A stretch of 44,773 nt of DNA from a virus: positions 1 through 44,773 of IMG/VR virus record IMGVR_UViG_3300046747_000272; one strand, 5' to 3'. The notes beneath the pieces were generated by a model. The model made no database searches and was not told where the DNA came from. It saw only the letters and a program-made list of their open reading frames with translations. Below are positions 335 to 44,122 of the stretch, one piece after another. The translations under genes and the position numbers were made by a program. Positions within the stretch are counted from its first letter, which is position 1. Each line of letters begins with the position of its first letter.

Positions 335-694
335 TCACTTCTTCTCCTCCGGGAGCTTCTCCGGGGGGCCGGTCAGAGACCTCAGTCGCGCCTCGAACTC
401 ATGCTCATTGATGAGCCCCGAGGAGGTGGCCATCTGGGTCAGGCCGGAGGTGATGGTGTAGATAGTCTTGTGAGAGAGGTCGAGTCCGTAGCCCACGGAT
501 ATCAAATGGAGGAACTCATGAATGACTGTGTTGAGGGCCGCCCGTCCCGCGACCTCACCATGAATTCCGATGGTGGCCTCATGCTTCAAACTATTGAAGG
601 CGCAGATCCCGTTGGCGGACCCATCGTCGGCCTCGAGTTCTTCCACGAGGCCAAGTGTGAAAACCCAGTCCCCACATGTCCCCATTACAGTCAT
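335..694 (-). CDS. HExxH metallopeptidase-like phage protein (no signal peptide)
   Basis: A 119-residue protein with a zinc-peptidase motif HEFLH at residues 59-63, preceded by hydrophobic residues (NTVI) and followed by a helical GLDLSHKTIYTITSGL stretch. This is the layout of small cytoplasmic phage proteins with an SprT/ImmA-like HExxH core. No signal peptide or membrane segment is visible. The start ATG shares ATGA with the stop of the exported metallopeptidase gene upstream, so the two are translationally coupled. The C-terminus is charged and proline-rich. The zinc-binding fold is well supported by the motif; substrate and role are unknown. It could act on a host regulator or assist lysis with its neighbour. 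Confidence 0.7.
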   Translation of the reverse strand: MTVMGTCGDWVFTLGLVEELEADDGSANGICAFNSLKHEATIGIHGEVAGRAALNTVIHEFLHLISVGYGLDLSHKTIYTITSGLTQMATSSGLINEHEFEARLRSLTGPPEKLPEEKK

Positions 695-1173
695 CCGCCA
701 CAGACCTTGAACTCAACAATCGTGGCCCATCTGTTATCCCTGTAGCAGGGGGCATAGCTGTGGTCGTGGCCCATCACGTGGCACACCTCGTGAGCAAAGA
801 TGCCCGCCGAAGTGTGTCCCTCCCAGCAGGGCCGCGCAGCGATAATCATGATTTGCTGCTCCACCGCTGTGCACCCGAACAAGGTGAAACCCTCGGGGGG
901 CGGGCCGCACGGCGTGCCATCAGGCGGAAGTGCCCCATCCGGATAGATGATGAGAATGGCGCTCTGGAATCTGATGAGTAGCTCTAGCTGCTCTAGAGGC
1001 CCAAGGAGGGCCATAGTGGCGGTGGTCCAGCTATCAACCTCTTCCGGGGTAGACCTGTGGCCGGGGTCGAAGACCTTGAGACCATTGGCAGTGACATAGT
1101 CTGGGTCGGGCGGAGCCTCGGAGACTGGGGCGGATTGGGCGAGGGCGAGGCCTAGAGCTAGGGCGTACAACAT
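691..1173 (-). CDS. Exported metzincin-like zinc metallopeptidase
   Basis: A 160-residue protein with an N-terminal hydrophobic leader (about residues 1-18, ending near AQSAPVSEA) that looks like a cleavable signal peptide. Residues 128-138 read HEVCHVMGHDH, an exact match to the metzincin consensus HExxHxxGxxH: H128, H132 and H138 would bind zinc and E129 would be catalytic. Several cysteines (C89, C101, C116, C131, C143, C158) suggest disulfides in an exported protein. It lies downstream of a 49-residue membrane protein and upstream of another HExxH gene. Its ribosome binding site and start codon lie inside a perfect inverted repeat (1172-1193). A role in lysis, surface degradation or defence against host proteins is inferred, not shown. 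Exported metzincins are unusual in phages. Confidence 0.75.
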   Translation of the reverse strand: MLYALALGLALAQSAPVSEAPPDPDYVTANGLKVFDPGHRSTPEEVDSWTTATMALLGPLEQLELLIRFQSAILIIYPDGALPPDGTPCGPPPEGFTLFGCTAVEQQIMIIAARPCWEGHTSAGIFAHEVCHVMGHDHSYAPCYRDNRWATIVEFKVCGG

Positions 1174-1193
1174 AACTACTCCTGAGTAGTTAT
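1172..1193 (-). promoter_or_regulatory. Perfect inverted repeat covering RBS and start of the metallopeptidase gene
   Basis: Ten-base arms (ATAACTACTC / GAGTAGTTAT) are separated by only two bases. On the leftward mRNA the repeat begins five bases after the stop codon of the small membrane-protein gene. It contains the AGGAG Shine-Dalgarno sequence, and its end includes the first two bases of the AUG. As RNA it would fold with a loop of about four bases and hide both signals. As DNA it could be a dimer-binding operator. Either way it points to dedicated control of this gene. Confidence 0.65.
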
Positions 1194-1197
1194 TACT

Positions 1198-1347
1198 CTA
1201 GCCAAGACGCTCCGGTTTGACAAGGGCGAACAGGACCATGTTCAGGATGGCTATGAACGCAAACATGGCCCCTATAATCGGGCGGTTAGAGGCGAAGGCC
1301 GCCGAGGAAACGAGGGTGCAGATGGATGCGGCTAGGAAGCGGGTCAT
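1198..1347 (-). CDS. 49-residue membrane protein, holin-like candidate
   Basis: The ATG shares ATGA with the stop of the DUF3310 gene; the frame ends at TAG 1200-1198. The protein has a hydrophobic N-terminus resembling a signal sequence (FLAASICTLVSSAAFA) and a second hydrophobic helix (GAMFAFIAILNMVLFALV), with basic residues at both ends. It directly precedes an exported metallopeptidase gene. The size, two hydrophobic segments and position fit a small holin or pinholin, but this is inference from layout. No holin family is recognised. Confidence 0.55.
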   Translation of the reverse strand: MTRFLAASICTLVSSAAFASNRPIIGAMFAFIAILNMVLFALVKPERLG

Positions 1348-3160: not shown

Positions 3161-3397
3161 CTAGCCTAGCTCACCACCAATGTCATTCAAATTGATCTCC
3201 ACAGCGTCTAATTTCAGCTCTAGCCATTCTTGAGCCTCTTGGGCCCCAAGGTTCCGGGCTGCCTGGTGCATGGTGCAGAGGGCGAGCCAGAAAGCTCCCT
3301 CGGTTTCTACATCGACGGCTTCCCGGAACCCCTGCAGGCACCGCTCTGCCTCATCTGCAAAAGCTTTGGGGACCCCCATAAACTCACTTAACTTCAT
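3161..3397 (-). CDS. Hypothetical protein, 78 residues
   Basis: A small acidic, mostly helical protein of unknown family (MKLSEFMGVPKAF...). It starts inside the end of the polymerase gene, with AAGGAGG five bases before its ATG, so it is clearly translated from the same message. No motif, signal or membrane segment is visible. Its place between polymerase and ligase suggests an accessory replication role, which is only positional inference. Confidence 0.65.
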   Translation of the reverse strand: MKLSEFMGVPKAFADEAERCLQGFREAVDVETEGAFWLALCTMHQAARNLGAQEAQEWLELKLDAVEINLNDIGGELG

Positions 3398-4643
3398 CTA
3401 GCCCTCCTTCGAGTGAAGAAATCTTACTTTCCACAGGCAACTCCACGGTGTGGCCCCGGTGATCAATCGCTCCTTCCATGTAGTAGTGGAGCAGCTGCTG
3501 AATCCGGTCAGGGTCCGGACTCTCGATGGTGATGGCGTCATGGACTACTGTGAGGACCGTGTCGCAGGGCTCGAGCCGGGCCCACACCGCCAGCAGCGCC
3601 TTGTTCATCCACCACGCCACCGCGGCTTGGTTAGGGAAGTTCCGCGCCAGATTGGGGTTCGGAGGTCCAAAGAATCGGACCCTGCGCCCGCTAAAGGGCT
3701 CGAAGTAGTAGCCACGCCCTCGGCAGTCCTCTTCCTCCTCGAGGCCCCAAGCCTTCACCCGGGGGCAGGTGGAGAAGTATTTGTTCTGCATCGCGGACAC
3801 ATCGCGCACGGTGAGCCCGGGGAAGTCTTTCCGGATGGTCTCGTTGGCCCAGATCTGAGAGTAGGCCGTGTCCGCCCCCGCCCCATAGTTCGACGCCAGG
3901 ATGACTTCCTTGGCCAGCGCCCTGAGCTTGTGCCCCTTCTTGATGTCGGGGTTCTTGAACATCTCGCGCCCGACCATGCTGTAGATGTCGCCCCCCGCCG
4001 CGAACGTGGAGAGCATCGTGGTCTCGCCCGCGAAGAGGGCCACGGTCCGGAGTTCGGCCGCCGCTAGGTCCGCCTCGACAATCCGCTTTCCTGGGGTGGC
4101 TTTGATGAGCTTGCGCATCTCGCCGCTGAGGGTTTGGAGGGGGACCCCGGTGCACGACCACCTGCCAGACAAAGCTGTGTGCGCGCGCCACTCCCCATAG
4201 ACCCGGCTCTCACCCTTCGCTGGCGCCATCCCCCTGACGTACGTGCCCAGAATCTTCGCGTACCCCCGCCACTCCAGGAGCTTCCCGGAGAACTCCTGAC
4301 AGGCTTGGTTGTCGCACTGGAGGTAGATCGTCAGGGCGTCCTCGTCGTAAGAGGGGCTCGCCTTGCCCTGCTCGTTCGGGGGGTTCCACTTCACCGGCTC
4401 CACCTTGAAGTGGTTCTGGTACAGGGTGGCGGTCTGCTTCGGGGAGCCCGGATTGAAGTCTGGCATGCCGAAGAGCTTGGCCCCGCGCTTGATCTGCTCG
4501 GTAGCCTTCTCGAGCTTGGCGGAGTATTCGGTCTCCAGGGCCTGCGCGGCTTCGTGATTCCAGGCGCACCCCGACCGCCTCATGGATTGGGCGATGGCGT
4601 CCAAGGCCTTGAGTTCGGCGTAGAGGCGCTGGCCGGTTGTCAC
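3384..4643 (-). CDS. DNA polymerase family A, polymerase domain only
   Basis: A 419-residue polymerase lacking its own exonuclease. Palm motif A is EADLAAAELR (about residue 186, catalytic Asp). Motif B is the fingers helix with KEVILASNYGAG. Motif C is VVHDAITIE (about residue 365, catalytic Asp). Motif C has Ala where most PolA enzymes have Glu after HD. The GTG start at 4643 is chosen because GTGA overlaps the exonuclease gene stop and AAGGAG lies five bases upstream; the longer frame from 4757 would read through the neighbour. Together with the upstream UDG-like/exonuclease gene it forms one replicative polymerase encoded as two chains, as opposed to the usual single polypeptide. Confidence 0.9.
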   Translation of the reverse strand: MTTGQRLYAELKALDAIAQSMRRSGCAWNHEAAQALETEYSAKLEKATEQIKRGAKLFGMPDFNPGSPKQTATLYQNHFKVEPVKWNPPNEQGKASPSYDEDALTIYLQCDNQACQEFSGKLLEWRGYAKILGTYVRGMAPAKGESRVYGEWRAHTALSGRWSCTGVPLQTLSGEMRKLIKATPGKRIVEADLAAAELRTVALFAGETTMLSTFAAGGDIYSMVGREMFKNPDIKKGHKLRALAKEVILASNYGAGADTAYSQIWANETIRKDFPGLTVRDVSAMQNKYFSTCPRVKAWGLEEEEDCRGRGYYFEPFSGRRVRFFGPPNPNLARNFPNQAAVAWWMNKALLAVWARLEPCDTVLTVVHDAITIESPDPDRIQQLLHYYMEGAIDHRGHTVELPVESKISSLEGGLDEVK

Positions 4644-5833
4644 ACGTACTCCTTCAACCGTTGTTTCATCCGATTCCAAACCATCAAAGTCATGTATGCG
4701 TCGCGCTGACAGTAAATTCGACGCTCCCGCTCCACACCTGGATCCGTAGAGTCCCACATACCTTGCAGGACCCCGGTCTCTTTGTCAGCCTTGAAAGCAG
4801 CCTTGTGGGCTTCAGCGTGGTACTCGGAGGAAACTAGAGCGCCGAGATTCTTTGGGAGCTGGGGGTCAAGGATGCTGGCCGCCAGTAGGGTGTCCTCATA
4901 GTGGGGGGTCAGTGCATAGCCATGGTGGGATAGGACTCCGCGGTCGAAAGCAGAGATGTTCTGTCCGACCATCGTACCGTTACTAAGGATGGCACGAACG
5001 AGAGCATCATCTTCGGCTGAGCATGGGAGCTGTATGCAGCAAGAATCCCGATCAGTTGCAAACCCAATGCACGAGATCTCTGATGTAAGACCAAGACCCC
5101 GGGTCTCAATGTCGACGGATACAACTCCACCAGAAAGGACGGCATCCCTGATTCGTACAAGAACCTGTCCCAGTTCAGGCCCATCGACTACAACCTCCGG
5201 CCACTCGAAGTCACCAAGACGTCCGGTGGCAAGGTACGCCGCGCGCCAAACGTGCGCGCCGAAGACCCCACCGAAGCGCGACCCGTCCGCCTTGAGGATG
5301 AATCCGGGGCCCCATGTCGGGATAACCCTGACTCCGCCCCACTGCCCGTCGAGGGGCGCACCGATCCAATCGTCGAAGTTGCCCAATTTCCCAGACGTCG
5401 CTCTGAAGGCTTCTGCTCCAAGCGATAGGATCCACTTGCGCTGACTTGGCCCGCCTTCGCCATCAGCTTGCTCAGGCGCAACATCTCGGCGAAGCCTCGG
5501 GGCACAACACTCAATGGCGGTCTGGATATCTTTTTTTGGTGTTCCAGGTGGGGGGCGACAACTAATGCTGAAGACATAGGAATACTCCTCTACGCCAGCG
5601 GCGCTTAGGTTCTTTCTGAGTAACTCTGATGCTGGGTGCCGAGTGGGGACCCCGCGTTCATCTTCTGATCGGGACGGCCATCCCTCGACCGCAGTAAGCG
5701 CGGCGCCAGGGACAACCTTTGATGCGACAGGCTTACACGACTTTGACAGGGGGCAGAGTCTGCACAGGGCGTGATTTGCCTCTGCGTCATAGCTTGGCCT
5801 ATCTGCGACCTTAGGCGGCGGACGACGAGCCAC
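4640..5833 (-). CDS. UDG family 4-like domain fused to DnaQ-type 3'-5' exonuclease
   Basis: A 397-residue protein. Residues 1-200 resemble Fe-S uracil-DNA glycosylases: cysteines C24, C27, C92 and C109 follow the Cx2C...Cx16C pattern, and SCRPPPGTPKKDI matches the family 4 loop. The catalytic motifs look degraded: the usual GEAPG is replaced by VEGWPS and the HPS motif by GPG, so glycosylase activity is doubtful. Residues 235-397 form a DEDDy exonuclease: D241 and E243 in DIETRG, D297 in NISAFD, Y374 and D378 in YCQRD. GTG start at 5833 with GGAGG upstream. A UDG-like domain on a phage polymerase is known (SPO1 type); here it is joined to the proofreading half of a split polymerase. Confidence 0.85.
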   Translation of the reverse strand: MARRPPPKVADRPSYDAEANHALCRLCPLSKSCKPVASKVVPGAALTAVEGWPSRSEDERGVPTRHPASELLRKNLSAAGVEEYSYVFSISCRPPPGTPKKDIQTAIECCAPRLRRDVAPEQADGEGGPSQRKWILSLGAEAFRATSGKLGNFDDWIGAPLDGQWGGVRVIPTWGPGFILKADGSRFGGVFGAHVWRAAYLATGRLGDFEWPEVVVDGPELGQVLVRIRDAVLSGGVVSVDIETRGLGLTSEISCIGFATDRDSCCIQLPCSAEDDALVRAILSNGTMVGQNISAFDRGVLSHHGYALTPHYEDTLLAASILDPQLPKNLGALVSSEYHAEAHKAAFKADKETGVLQGMWDSTDPGVERERRIYCQRDAYMTLMVWNRMKQRLKEYV

Positions 5834-6311
5834 AGGCCGCCTCCGGGAAGTTCAGGCACGCAAACTCTCCGTGGTATTCCCGCGCCAATCTGTCGTAAGC
5901 GCGTGCGGCTTCTTCTTCGGTAGCGAAAGCGGCAACTCTGTAGTGCAAGCCATCGACACAGAGTCTAGCTACGTAGGGCCTAGACCTGTTACCACTAACC
6001 TTGTGCACGCCCTTGTACTGCCTAGAGGAGTCCAGACGCTGTACCCGGTTCCTGACATTCTCTGAGAACTTGCATGGCCGGAGATTACAACTTCGGTTGT
6101 CAAGTTTGTTATGGTTGATGTGATCAATATTTGGGGGTACACCACCCAGGATTTCCCGGTGGAGAAGCATGTACTTCCGCCCCATTTGCCTTCGCGCATA
6201 CCCGGTAGATGTGAAGGTCCAGTGGTGCTGGGCCAACGTGTCGTAGTCGTCCCAGTCCACGATGGCGACTTTGCCCTTAGTCAGGAATATATATCGGGGG
6301 ACTTTCTTCAC
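5811..6311 (-). CDS. HNH homing endonuclease with AP2 DNA-binding domain
   Basis: A 166-residue free-standing homing endonuclease. The HNH core is IDHINHNKLDNRSCNLR (about residues 82-98). It is followed by an AP2-type DNA-binding domain from YKGVHK to FATEEEAARAYDRLAREYHG and the family ending NFPEAA. GTG start with GAGGT upstream. The end overlaps the start of the UDG-exonuclease gene by 23 bases, so the element sits immediately before the polymerase genes, a typical target. Two paralogues of the same architecture lie at 32849 and 33956. Confidence 0.9.
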   Translation of the reverse strand: MKKVPRYIFLTKGKVAIVDWDDYDTLAQHHWTFTSTGYARRQMGRKYMLLHREILGGVPPNIDHINHNKLDNRSCNLRPCKFSENVRNRVQRLDSSRQYKGVHKVSGNRSRPYVARLCVDGLHYRVAAFATEEEAARAYDRLAREYHGEFACLNFPEAACGSSSAA

Positions 6312-8418: not shown

Positions 8419-9213
8419 TCAGATGAACGAGCAGCACCCCGAAATAAAATAGGGGCACGGGCGGTAAAAACTTAGACACGTATCCTCGGACGGGTTGGGC
8501 ACCGGGCCCGCAGCCTTAGCCGCCTTCACTTTCTCGAAGATGCCCTTGAGCCACCTCATCCTTTGATCAGTTACGCCCTCAAACGGGAACCGATGAAAGG
8601 TCGGCGACTTGGTCTTGACGGTCACCTCGTAGATGACCCCGGCAGGCTCCACTCCTGTGGCCAAGGCATAGCCAACGGCATACAGGTGCTGCTGGGGCAG
8701 GAGCGAGTAACGCTCCCGCATGAGCTTGTCGTTTTGGCCCTCGGTCTTGAAGTCCACGAGGAAAACCTCGCCGCCCTTCCGGACTACCATGTCGATGGCG
8801 CCAGTGAGACGCACCCCGAATAACTCCTCGGGGATCTCGACCTGAACCTCGCACCCCAGCACCTCGCCGAGCCCGTCCGGGTCGTGGGCTTGTGTGTAGG
8901 CCCGATACAGCCGCCTCACCTCGGCGCAAGTCAGCGGGTGGCTCTTCTCCATGTCCACGCCGTCCCAGGTGAACTGTGCGCTATCGCGGACTGGCTCCCC
9001 CCGGTAGTAGCGCTGCTGGAGTTCGCCCAGCAGGCTGCCCACGGTGTTCGCCACGGGCTTGCCTTCCTCGGGGAACAGGGGCCACGGCGACCCATCCCGC
9101 TGCGCTTCGGCTGCCTCGTCGGCGGCTGCTCGAGCGCCGCAGCCAAGCCATTTCTTTGCCTTTGAGTAGCCGTGGGTAGTCCCCGTACTAGAGAAATTTA
9201 TGCTTTCGGTCAT
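8419..9213 (-). CDS. PD-(D/E)XK nuclease, RecB/Cas4-like
   Basis: A 264-residue nuclease. Catalytic residues are D141 in GAIDMV, D154 and K156 in VDFKTEG, and the trailing QQHLYAVGY (Q174/Q175), the order found in RecB-family PDDEXK_1 enzymes. Cysteines C25, C246, C253 and C260 are placed to bind an iron-sulfur cluster as in Cas4/AddB proteins. GGAGG is six bases before the ATG, which shares ATGA with the preceding HNH gene. The likely role is a 5'-3' exonuclease feeding the Sak4-like ATPase, or host DNA degradation. Confidence 0.85.
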   Translation of the reverse strand: MTESINFSSTGTTHGYSKAKKWLGCGARAAADEAAEAQRDGSPWPLFPEEGKPVANTVGSLLGELQQRYYRGEPVRDSAQFTWDGVDMEKSHPLTCAEVRRLYRAYTQAHDPDGLGEVLGCEVQVEIPEELFGVRLTGAIDMVVRKGGEVFLVDFKTEGQNDKLMRERYSLLPQQHLYAVGYALATGVEPAGVIYEVTVKTKSPTFHRFPFEGVTDQRMRWLKGIFEKVKAAKAAGPVPNPSEDTCLSFYRPCPYFISGCCSFI

Positions 9214-9611
9214 AGCTTACCTCCCACCGGAACATACAAGGCTTGTGGCCACGGCCAACCTGCTCCCAGGCGGTAATGCACCGTCTTGTAGGGCATGCCG
9301 GCCTTCCTGCACCACTCCTTGAGTGGCATTGACATGCCTGCCCACTCTAGCCTCCGCACATTCCTTCGATTCTCGGCCTGAGCTTGCCTACTATCCCACC
9401 TACAGTTGCCCGGCTCGTAGTGGCTATTATTATCTACCCTCTCTAGGGTCATGCTTGGTGGAGCCGGCCCAATGTCCTGATAGTACAAGTCAAAGTCATG
9501 CCACCGATCGCACACCCGAATCCCACGAGCGCCGTAGTCTGGGTAGGACTTGTTCTTGGGGTTGTAGCAACGGGCCTTCATGGCCCTCCATCTGGCTCGG
9601 GCTAGATTCAT
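9210..9611 (-). CDS. HNH homing endonuclease with NUMOD-type HTH
   Basis: A 133-residue endonuclease of the YGxRGI type: RARWRAMKARCYNPKN, YGARGIRVCDRW, LERVDNNSHYEPGNCRW, then QAENRRNVR. A C-terminal helix-turn-helix (LKEWCRKAGMPYKTVHYR) provides target recognition. It shares ATGA with the helicase gene before it and with the nuclease gene after it, so it is inserted exactly at a gene junction without breaking either reading frame. Confidence 0.85.
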   Translation of the reverse strand: MNLARARWRAMKARCYNPKNKSYPDYGARGIRVCDRWHDFDLYYQDIGPAPPSMTLERVDNNSHYEPGNCRWDSRQAQAENRRNVRRLEWAGMSMPLKEWCRKAGMPYKTVHYRLGAGWPWPQALYVPVGGKL

Positions 9612-22870: not shown

Positions 22871-22893
22871 GATGGGGCGCTCGTGCTGGCATC

Positions 22894-22910
22894 ATAATGG
22901 CCGCCATTAT
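22894..22910. promoter_or_regulatory. Palindrome overlapping a TATAAT box
   Basis: ATAATGGC-C-GCCATTAT is a perfect inverted repeat. Its right end overlaps a consensus -10 TATAAT (22908-22913). It may be an operator for the following small genes. Confidence 0.45.
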
Positions 22911-23187
22911 AATGAGCCAGGGGCTTATGATGCACTCGAGCGCCGGGGGCGCGCCCACATTCACCCACACCACTAGGGCGACAATTCGTCGCCTAAAGCG
23001 ACAATGTGGCGTCGATATCGAGCCACACCTCGAGCCTGGCCTGTATGGTCTATCAGGAGGCTCGAACTATGGTCACGCTACTGCTCTTCATCATCGCTCT
23101 TGCAGTCCTTCCCCTCGCCCTCTGCGTCGCTTGGATCGCATTGCGCATCTTCGCCTTCATCGCGGGTATCGTACTCTTGTTTGGTAG
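22897..23187 (+). CDS. Doubtful small ORF
   Basis: An open frame of 96 codons beginning just after the duplicated leader. Its last 39 codons overlap the well-supported membrane-protein gene in another frame. Leader duplication favours a gene starting near here; amino-acid composition of the second half looks like a shadow. The real product may be shorter. Confidence 0.25.
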   Translation: MAAIIMSQGLMMHSSAGGAPTFTHTTRATIRRLKRQCGVDIEPHLEPGLYGLSGGSNYGHATALHHRSCSPSPRPLRRLDRIAHLRLHRGYRTLVW

Positions 23188-26937: not shown

Positions 26938-26966
26938 TAGACACAACGCAAGATTCGTGCCACAAT
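26938..26966 (+). promoter_or_regulatory. Extended -10 promoter before 26975
   Basis: TAGACA (26938-26943), 17-base spacer, TGC-CACAAT (hexamer 26961-26966). The hexamer ends eight bases before ATG 26975, predicting a leader of about two bases or none. Confidence 0.6.
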
Positions 26967-32812: not shown

Positions 32813-32821
32813 TGCTATAGT
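32813..32821 (+). promoter_or_regulatory. Extended -10 element before the HNH gene at 32849
   Basis: TGC-TATAGT. No good -35 at 16-18 bases. A GGGCCC...GGGCCC hairpin and AGGGAGGGG follow before the ATG. Confidence 0.4.
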
Positions 32822-32848
32822 CTGAGGGCCCTAGGGAGGGGCCCAAGG

Positions 32849-33316
32849 ATGACCTGGATTTGCAGAGAGATTAAGGGTCGAAAGGTTTTTGTGGATCTAC
32901 AAGATGTGCCCCTCTTAAGTGCGCACACTTGGAAAATCGACAAGGGTGGATACGTGCGTCGACATCACGAGAGGGGGGCCCTACACCGGATAATCTTGGG
33001 TCTTCTGGGCTCCCCAGAAACCCACGTCGACCACATCAACGGAGACAAGCTAGACAATCGTCGCTGCAACTTGCGGGCCTGCACGCGGGAACAGAACATG
33101 CGCAACATGCGGCGGCATTCCGACAACACATCCGGGTACAAGGGTGTCCATTGGAACAAGCAGAGGGGGAAATGGGCGGCCGCGTTGCACAAGATGGGTA
33201 AACGGCGCTTGTACAAGTTATTTACCCTTAAAGAAGATGCCGCTAAAGCATATGATGAGGCAGCAAAACAGCACTTCGGCGAGTTCGCACGCCTTAACTT
33301 CCCTGAGGCTGCATGA
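32849..33316 (+). CDS. HNH-AP2 homing endonuclease
   Basis: A 155-residue endonuclease with HNH core VDHINGDKLDNRRCNLR, then an AP2 domain from YKGVHWNKQRGKWAA to LKEDAAKAYDEAAKQHFGEF and the ending NFPEAA, the same ending as the copy at 5811. AGGGAGGGG lies upstream of the ATG. Its stop overlaps the next gene start (ATGA). Confidence 0.9.
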   Translation: MTWICREIKGRKVFVDLQDVPLLSAHTWKIDKGGYVRRHHERGALHRIILGLLGSPETHVDHINGDKLDNRRCNLRACTREQNMRNMRRHSDNTSGYKGVHWNKQRGKWAAALHKMGKRRLYKLFTLKEDAAKAYDEAAKQHFGEFARLNFPEAA

Positions 33317-33955: not shown

Positions 33956-34447
33956 ATGAAGACTCTACCCCTGACTCAAGGCCATGAAGCTATCGTAGAT
34001 GACGAGGACTACGAGGCTTTGTCCGCTTTCAAGTGGTGCTTCTCGCAGGGCCGCGCGACCCGCCGGCAGCGGAAGTTCGGCATCATCAAGAAGGACGTCT
34101 TCACCTTGATGCATCGGGTGATCCTGGGGGTTTGTGGGCAGCCGGGGGTACACGTGGACCACATCAATGGCAATCCACTCGACAACCGTAGGACCAATCT
34201 TCGCACCTGCACCATACAGCAGAATCTGCTGAATCAAGGACCGAAGAAAACCAAACGCAGCCGTTTCAAAGGGGTTGGGTGGCATAAGGACGCAGCAAAG
34301 TGGTGTGCCCGTGCGGGGTTTGCCAAAACCAAGAGACACTTAGGGCTGTTTGACCGGGAAGAGGACGCAGCGCGCGCCTACGATAAGGCAGCGAAAGCCA
34401 TCTTCGGTGACTTTGCAAGGACCAATGAAGCCTTGGGGCTCCTATGA
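33956..34447 (+). CDS. HNH-AP2 homing endonuclease
   Basis: A 163-residue endonuclease: HRVILGVCG, HNH core VDHINGNPLDNRRTNLR, AP2 domain with FKGVGWHKDAAKW and REEDAARAYDKAAKAIFGDF. The final residues differ from its two paralogues. It shares ATGA with the adaptor gene that follows. Has no Shine-Dalgarno and is predicted to be leaderless. Confidence 0.9.
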   Translation: MKTLPLTQGHEAIVDDEDYEALSAFKWCFSQGRATRRQRKFGIIKKDVFTLMHRVILGVCGQPGVHVDHINGNPLDNRRTNLRTCTIQQNLLNQGPKKTKRSRFKGVGWHKDAAKWCARAGFAKTKRHLGLFDREEDAARAYDKAAKAIFGDFARTNEALGLL

Positions 34448-38122: not shown

Positions 38123-38719
38123 ATGGTCTTCGTCCGGCGCGGCTCAGTTGGTCTTCCCGGTGGGCGTGCTTACTACCGCGGTAAGGACGCCTATGCGGCG
38201 CAGAGCCGGGAGAACGAGTCCCGTATCGTTCAGCCCCCGGGCTACGTCAAGGCGCTCATCCAGCACGGCACGGTATACCCGACAGGCGTTAATACCATCA
38301 TCTGGCTCACCGGCACGGGGTCGGTCTTTATCCCCACCATGGAAGCCATTGGATGGTTCTACAACGCCACCACAGGTGTCTTCACCTGTCAGCGCGATGG
38401 CCGCTATCAGATCGCCTGTGGCATCAGCGTCACCGACAGCTCCTCTTCGGACTACTTCGTCCTCCAGGTCCGGACCGTCCGCAACATCTCCAATGTCCCC
38501 TACACCTTCGTGGTGGACACGGACACCTCGGCCACGGCGGGGTCGAGCACCGACATGGTCCTAGCCGCCGACTTCAACTTCAACCAGGGGGACCTGGTCA
38601 GCGTGGAGTTCAACAACCAGGGGAGCGGTTCCAGGACCGTGGGCGGCCTCGCTGGTGTGGGTACCACCACAGAGACTCAAAACCTGGGTTACTTCAACCT
38701 TTGGCAGATTGACGACTAG
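38123..38719 (+). CDS. C1q/TNF-like virion protein, receptor-binding candidate
   Basis: A 198-residue protein. Residues about 60-198 look like a C1q/TNF jelly roll: NATTGVFTCQRDGRYQIACG, then a long DYFVLQVRT strand, LAADFNFNQGDLVSVEF, and a terminal YFNLWQID. This fold is used by trimeric phage receptor-binding and spike proteins. A glycine-rich N-terminal tail would attach it to the tail. Confidence 0.65.
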   Translation: MVFVRRGSVGLPGGRAYYRGKDAYAAQSRENESRIVQPPGYVKALIQHGTVYPTGVNTIIWLTGTGSVFIPTMEAIGWFYNATTGVFTCQRDGRYQIACGISVTDSSSSDYFVLQVRTVRNISNVPYTFVVDTDTSATAGSSTDMVLAADFNFNQGDLVSVEFNNQGSGSRTVGGLAGVGTTTETQNLGYFNLWQIDD

Positions 38720-38738
38720 ACTCTAGCCATGCAATAAT
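38709..38738 (+). promoter_or_regulatory. Extended -10 promoter giving a leaderless 38745 gene
   Basis: TTGACG (38709-38714), 18-base spacer containing ACTCTAGCC, TGC-AATAAT (hexamer 38733-38738). The hexamer ends six bases before GTG 38745, so the predicted first base of the mRNA is the start codon. Confidence 0.65.
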
Positions 38739-42950: not shown

Positions 42951-44110
42951 TGCCTATCGATTGGGATGCAGTTGACTCTGCGGCGGATCCCGAATCCGCC
43001 ACAAAGCGAACCTACTCGAAGGGCCACTACGAGCCCCAACTCGGCCAAGCCCCCAAGGGCAACCTGCCCCAGAAGTCCACCCTAGAGTCCCTCCTCCGGG
43101 GCGGGGCGCAAGGCGCCAGTCTTGGGTTCGCCGACGAGATGGCTGGGGCACTCAAGGCGGCCACTCGGTTTGGTTCCATGCCCCGAGCAGAGGACTACCG
43201 CGCGGGCCGAGACGCCTACCGGGCTGAAGACAAACTTGCCGAGCAATCAAACCCCACCACCTTTGGAGCGGCGGACATTGCAGGCACCCTCGCCACCGCT
43301 CCCTTGAGTGGGGCCGCAAACACCGTAAAGAGCGCAGCTGCAACTGGGGCCAAGCTTGGCGGACTCCTAGGACTCGGCAAATCTGAATCCGACCTGACCC
43401 AGGGGGACTGGACTGGAAATGCTGTTGACACCGCCAAGGGCGCCGTCACAGGCGCTGTCTTGGGGCCACTAGGGTTAGGCCTAGCAAAGGGCGCTGGAGC
43501 CTTCGGCACCAAGGTTGGGGACACTGTCCGCAATCTAGGCTGGATCCTGGGCGGTAAGGGCGCCCCGAGTGCTGGACGTGCCCTAGACACTCTTGGGGTT
43601 GAGGCGGGCTCAGCCCCCAATCCCCGGATGCAGTCCTTGGTCGAGCAGAAGGTTGTCCACCCAGAGGATTTCCCCCCGAGTGCGTTCAATCGCTCCTCGG
43701 AATCCGCCCCCGACGCCATCGCCCGAGTGGGAAAGCAGCCCACGATTCAGGTCGCCGAGAAGGAGGGAGTCCAAGCCTCCAAGGCAGGTCTGGGCGCGGT
43801 CGAAGAGATGCCGTGGGCGAACAACCCCGACACTGTCCACGCACTGGTCGAGCTTCGTCGAGGCATCATCCCCAAGGGAGCCGCAACCCGGAGTGACCCC
43901 CTGGGTGGTGGTCTCCAAACCGTCTTGGCGGGGATCGAGAAGATTGCAGGCACGGACAAGAACTTGGCCAAGGCGCTCTCCCAGCCACGCATCAAAGCCG
44001 AGATGGCCCAAATCATCGCCGCAGGTCGCGCCCCAGACCTCTCATCTGAGGCAGCTCAGGCCTTATCTAGCCGCGCTCTTAGCCTTCTAGGCATCGACAA
44101 TCTACCCTAA
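42950..44110 (+). CDS. Internal virion protein with hydrophobic centre
   Basis: A 386-residue protein: polar N-terminus, glycine/alanine-rich hydrophobic middle (GAVTGAVLGPLGLGLAKGAG) and helical C-terminus. The pattern SLLRGGAQGASLGFADEMAG in the first third is frequent in phage virion proteins annotated as ejection or injection proteins. Likely the third of three ejection proteins. Confidence 0.6.
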   Translation: MPIDWDAVDSAADPESATKRTYSKGHYEPQLGQAPKGNLPQKSTLESLLRGGAQGASLGFADEMAGALKAATRFGSMPRAEDYRAGRDAYRAEDKLAEQSNPTTFGAADIAGTLATAPLSGAANTVKSAAATGAKLGGLLGLGKSESDLTQGDWTGNAVDTAKGAVTGAVLGPLGLGLAKGAGAFGTKVGDTVRNLGWILGGKGAPSAGRALDTLGVEAGSAPNPRMQSLVEQKVVHPEDFPPSAFNRSSESAPDAIARVGKQPTIQVAEKEGVQASKAGLGAVEEMPWANNPDTVHALVELRRGIIPKGAATRSDPLGGGLQTVLAGIEKIAGTDKNLAKALSQPRIKAEMAQIIAAGRAPDLSSEAAQALSSRALSLLGIDNLP

Positions 44111-44122
44111 ACCTGGCACAAT
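44094..44122 (+). promoter_or_regulatory. Extended -10 promoter giving a leaderless 44129 gene
   Basis: TCGACA (44094-44099, five of six consensus bases), 17-base spacer, TGG-CACAAT (hexamer 44117-44122). The hexamer ends six bases before ATG 44129. Confidence 0.65.

Follow-up and report, generated by a model that had tools for sequence, protein, structure and literature searches.

The window analysed comprises the whole 44.8-kb viral record (44,773 nt), in which the replication genes are read leftward (a split family-A DNA polymerase, RNA ligase, Dam, DUF3310, an SNF2-like helicase and DUF5906) and the structural genes rightward (terminase, portal, major capsid and internal virion protein). 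The gene over the start of which the inverted repeat lies is read from the minus strand, encodes a putative zinc peptidase, P0001, and only one clear gene comes after it in the leftward operon. It follows a 49-aa ORF whose TAG (1200-1198) is in frame with the peptidase AUG, with 24 nt between them, and ATGA overlaps flank this pair of genes on either side (Table 1). The product of the downstream gene, which carries the HEFLH motif, yielded no family match and no relative.

Table 1. Features at the peptidase start and its immediate surroundings.
Feature	Position	Strand	Basis or remark
Perfect inverted repeat ATAACTACTC-AG-GAGTAGTTAT	1172..1193	-	Repeat search and RNA folding
Shine-Dalgarno (SD) AGGAG	1179..1183	-	5 nt before AUG; loop and 3' arm
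Putative exported zinc peptidase P0001, 160 aa, HEVCHVMGHDH	691..1173	-	Motif; no Met-turn
Upstream ORF, 49 aa, two hydrophobic segments	1198..1347	-	ATGA overlap with DUF3310 gene
Downstream gene, 119 aa, second HExxH motif (HEFLH)	335..694	-	ATGA overlap with peptidase gene
Sigma-70-like promoter candidate TTGTCA-17-TAGAGT	1195..1223	-	Consensus match only, 9/12

Read on the minus strand, the junction is ...GGC TAG AGTA ATAACTACTC AG GAGTAGTTAT G TTG..., and the same 22 positions on the plus strand read ATAACTACTC-CT-GAGTAGTTAT. The repeat search returns arms at 1172-1181 and 1184-1193, each of 10 nt, 100% complementary and 2 nt apart, in agreement with the preliminary description of this DNA. 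The overlap reported there with the ribosome-binding site (RBS) and the beginning of the start codon is likewise evident from the minus-strand sequence: AGGAG comprises both centre bases of the repeat and the first three bases of its 3' arm, while the last two bases of that arm (1173-1172) are the AU of the peptidase AUG. The gap to the preceding stop codon is indeed short, but it amounts to four bases (AGTA) after the TAG and not to the five originally given.

The product had been described as an exported metzincin that might act as a lysis effector. The HExxHxxGxxH motif is present, but no Met occurs in the 22 residues after it that could provide a Met-turn, and no family match was found in Pfam, PHROGs or PDB; the metzincin assignment is therefore only partly supported. 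The single-sequence structure model of P0001 (pLDDT 40.5) is unusable. Export is likely, judging from the hydrophobic N-terminus, although the positive charge is missing there, with neither K nor R in that segment. The proposed role in lysis, on the other hand, finds no support: the gene is placed towards the end of the leftward operon, which also includes the genes for DNA polymerase, RNA ligase and Dam, and outside the structural operon. Neither beside it nor among the genes scanned was a lysis gene recognised. A phage-borne Listeria metzincin, Mtz, aids lysis (PMC8235301), and P0001 resembles it in being a small, putatively exported HExxHxxGxxH protein of phage origin. Mtz, however, possesses a Met-turn and a TIMP-like partner, and its relatives occur next to lysis genes of phages (PMC8235301); none of these features was found for P0001. 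A degenerate HExxHxxGHDH scan returned a few phage-encoded exported peptidases that have only the motif in common with P0001, and no comparable perfect hairpin was found at their starts.

No relatives of the peptidase were found in viral contigs, phage records, plasmids or genome contigs. A locus homologous or syntenic to the peptidase region was likewise not found in the four collections by way of the polymerase, the capsid, the portal or the HExxH neighbour; these searches returned distant polymerases and one 4-kb fragment only. The fragment is 99% identical in the portal, does not reach the peptidase locus and probably belongs to the same virus. The phage is one without close known relatives.

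Several other properties of the genome were recorded. The split family-A DNA polymerase (3384-5833, minus strand) consists of an exonuclease gene at 4640-5833, which is also weakly UDG-like, and a polymerase gene at 3384-4643; the two are joined by a 4-nt GTGA overlap, and in MW202622 they form a single gene. GATC occurs in the window at about half the expected frequency (216 vs 418), and the same phage carries a Dam-family gene at 1763-2242. At the left end of the contig (55-327, minus strand), a helix-turn-helix-like segment lies in one of two adjacent frames and its continuation in the other; neither frame has a Pfam match.

In its RNA form, the palindrome is predicted to give a 9-bp, A/U-rich stem with a CAGG loop and a folding energy of -7.3 kcal/mol, the stem being one pair shorter than the arms because a loop of 2 nt is too small to be closed by the innermost C-G. 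De Smit and van Duin reportedly found that inhibition only sets in at about this strength. The 22-mer folds better than all of 200 shuffles (z -4.55); when the context is widened to 91 or 131 nt, the structure is at the level of shuffled sequence (z -0.58 and +0.35, respectively). An opening cost was computed for the stretch from SD to AUG at 71 starts, for genes called by a simple codon-and-SD scheme, in contexts of 46 and 100 nt. In the shorter context the peptidase start ranks fourth of the 71 (12.1 vs a mean of 6.7 kcal/mol), the starts at 32849, 26621 and 33313 being locally more closed; in the longer one it falls to 29th (9.1 vs a mean of 8.4 kcal/mol). The perfect palindrome is eye-catching, yet the peptidase gene is no outlier in start closure.

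The preliminary description had proposed a hairpin that blocks initiation unless it is opened by ribosomes finishing the upstream gene. The second half of this proposal is geometrically plausible: when a ribosome is modelled at termination, with a footprint reaching 12 nt beyond the first stop-codon base, the opening cost drops from 7.4 to about 5.2 kcal/mol, which agrees with, and does not prove, the RNA-unfolding form of coupling (PMC12548453). The block itself has to be toned down, since a start that is averagely closed in 100 nt does not lead to the prediction of a tight one.

Taking this into account, the best explanation, adopted tentatively, is an ordinary intercistronic hairpin on the polycistronic mRNA of the leftward (replication) region, with modest coupling to the upstream ORF. 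The loop and the 3' strand would hold the peptidase SD and the start of its AUG, so that independent initiation would be moderately lowered. A ribosome terminating at the UAG four bases upstream would overlie the beginning of the 5' strand and open the stem, whereupon the same or another ribosome could initiate 24 nt downstream. The peptidase would then be translated in step with the 49-aa ORF, at a lower level. The palindrome, the way it overlaps SD and AUG, and the order and spacing of the genes are observed; hairpin formation in vivo, repression and its relief by termination are inferred.

This reading is favoured by the perfect arms over SD and AUG, by the high local opening cost and by the neighbouring operon junctions, whose ATGA overlaps are typical of coupled genes; there are also documented cases of sequestering hairpins that translation of the upstream gene opens (PMC12548453). 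The rank in 100 nt, the shuffle-level structure of the wider region and the A/U-rich stem speak against it, as does the perfect centre, which is superfluous for an RNA hairpin. In one screen, moreover, coupling tended to be poorer where structure followed the upstream stop immediately (PMC12548453). The MS2 coat/lysis and f1 VII/IX junctions (reviewed in PMC12548453) are similar in having the downstream RBS within a stem that an upstream ribosome can open, and they differ from the present case, where the start follows the stop by 24 nt and a weak hairpin begins after the stop.

The alternative that survives best, unlikely but to be taken seriously, is that a short palindrome without function happens to fall on the start site. 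A scan of the window for perfect repeats with arms of at least 10 nt and a loop of up to 10 finds one, compared with 0.45 expected from dinucleotide shuffles, and in 100 nt the start is closed to an ordinary degree. A single copy of the repeat is present, with no second one in the window even when up to three mismatches are allowed and no exact copy of the dyad elsewhere in 2.9 million viral contigs. Against chance stands the position: over the start regions of the 71 genes (42 nt each), one repeat of this class is seen and only 0.013 is expected, and shuffles of the peptidase's own start region reach such a repeat in 2 of 20000 cases. The restriction to start regions was chosen after the site had been seen, and the figure of 0.013 therefore backs a function only moderately.

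The candidate promoter, which ends just before the palindrome with a single base in between, also makes the dyad plausible as an operator, where a dimeric repressor of phage or host would bind just downstream of the promoter and act on transcription. The symmetry is perfect to the centre, a property usable by DNA binding and not by RNA. Such an operator is nevertheless improbable, given that the repeat occurs only once in the window, that the promoter match is weak and situated within a tight operon, and that no repressor gene was recognised among the genes scanned. Elsewhere in the window, a 12-bp inverted repeat (11/12) with a 1-nt centre covers a promoter-like TATAAT at 22890-22914 and is itself an operator candidate. 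Promoter-like sites on the plus strand at 26938-26966, 38709-38738 and 44094-44122 have a -10 element (CACAAT or AATAAT) that ends 7-9 nt before the start codon, a spacing that suggests leaderless or nearly leaderless transcripts. The GGCTAGAGTA motif beside the palindrome looked enriched relative to dinucleotide shuffles; the enrichment was rejected, as the sub-words of CTAGAGT account for its frequency (23 vs 18 expected), and its bias to intergenic DNA is only moderate.

Slightly less probable than an operator is a switch of transcript start of the type documented for T4 gene e and I-TevI (PMC3014915), with a silent long readthrough mRNA and a translated RNA devoid of the 5' arm. The candidate promoter is predicted to start RNA near 1187-1190, inside the 5' arm, and folding indicates that the hairpin is gone in an RNA from 1187, whereas one from 1190 keeps part of the stem (6 bp only). 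Three promoter matches of such quality were found in the 3.2 kb scanned, where about one is expected by chance. The likeness to T4 gene e, soc and I-TevI (PMC3014915, PMC2988022) lies in the SD and AUG of a phage gene held in a helix and in a promoter-like site just upstream that could remove the 5' arm; unlike in those genes, the promoter consensus here is weak, no late-promoter motif is shown, and the stem is short, A/U-rich and of only -7.3 kcal/mol.

The most closed start in the window belongs to another gene, the HNH endonuclease gene at 32849-33316 (plus strand, phrog_99). The region concerned is 32813-32865 (plus strand), where the start is closed by GGGCCCT-AGGGA-GGGGCCC, with -18.8 kcal/mol in 46 nt. 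The only extended -10 match in the window, TGCTATAGT, precedes this gene, and the transcript is predicted to start at the 5' arm, an arrangement like those of T4 I-TevI and Aeh1 mobE. The phage has four free-standing HNH genes, at 5811-6311 (minus), 9210-9611 (minus), 32849-33316 (plus) and 33956-34447 (plus), three of them members of phrog_99.

A combined reading, in which one 22-bp dyad serves both as RBS hairpin and as promoter/operator site, would mean that long mRNAs do not yield the peptidase while a short transcript of its own does, in a phage with no relation to T4, and that the HNH gene at 32849 is controlled likewise; this appears highly improbable. A UAG readthrough signal, with the hairpin after the in-frame stop and the 49-aa ORF fused to the peptidase as a result, is very improbable: UAG and AUG do share a frame with eight codons between them, but chance alone puts one junction in three in frame, the peptidase gene has a good SD and AUG, the weak stem follows the stop by only 4 nt, and the window contains no suppressor tRNA gene. 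An intrinsic terminator was also rejected, none having been found in the region, and there is no Rfam match.

Returning to the coupling hairpin, the element probably belongs to a known kind, the RBS-sequestering intercistronic hairpin. If it works, it would be one more case of the well-known setting of ratios between neighbouring proteins encoded on one polycistronic mRNA of a phage. A stronger example than the peptidase hairpin is the one at the start of the HNH gene at 32849, whose clearer T4-like arrangement could serve to test whether mobile endonucleases came under this type of control independently. More is gained from the comparison itself, by which several genes of the phage have equally closed starts.
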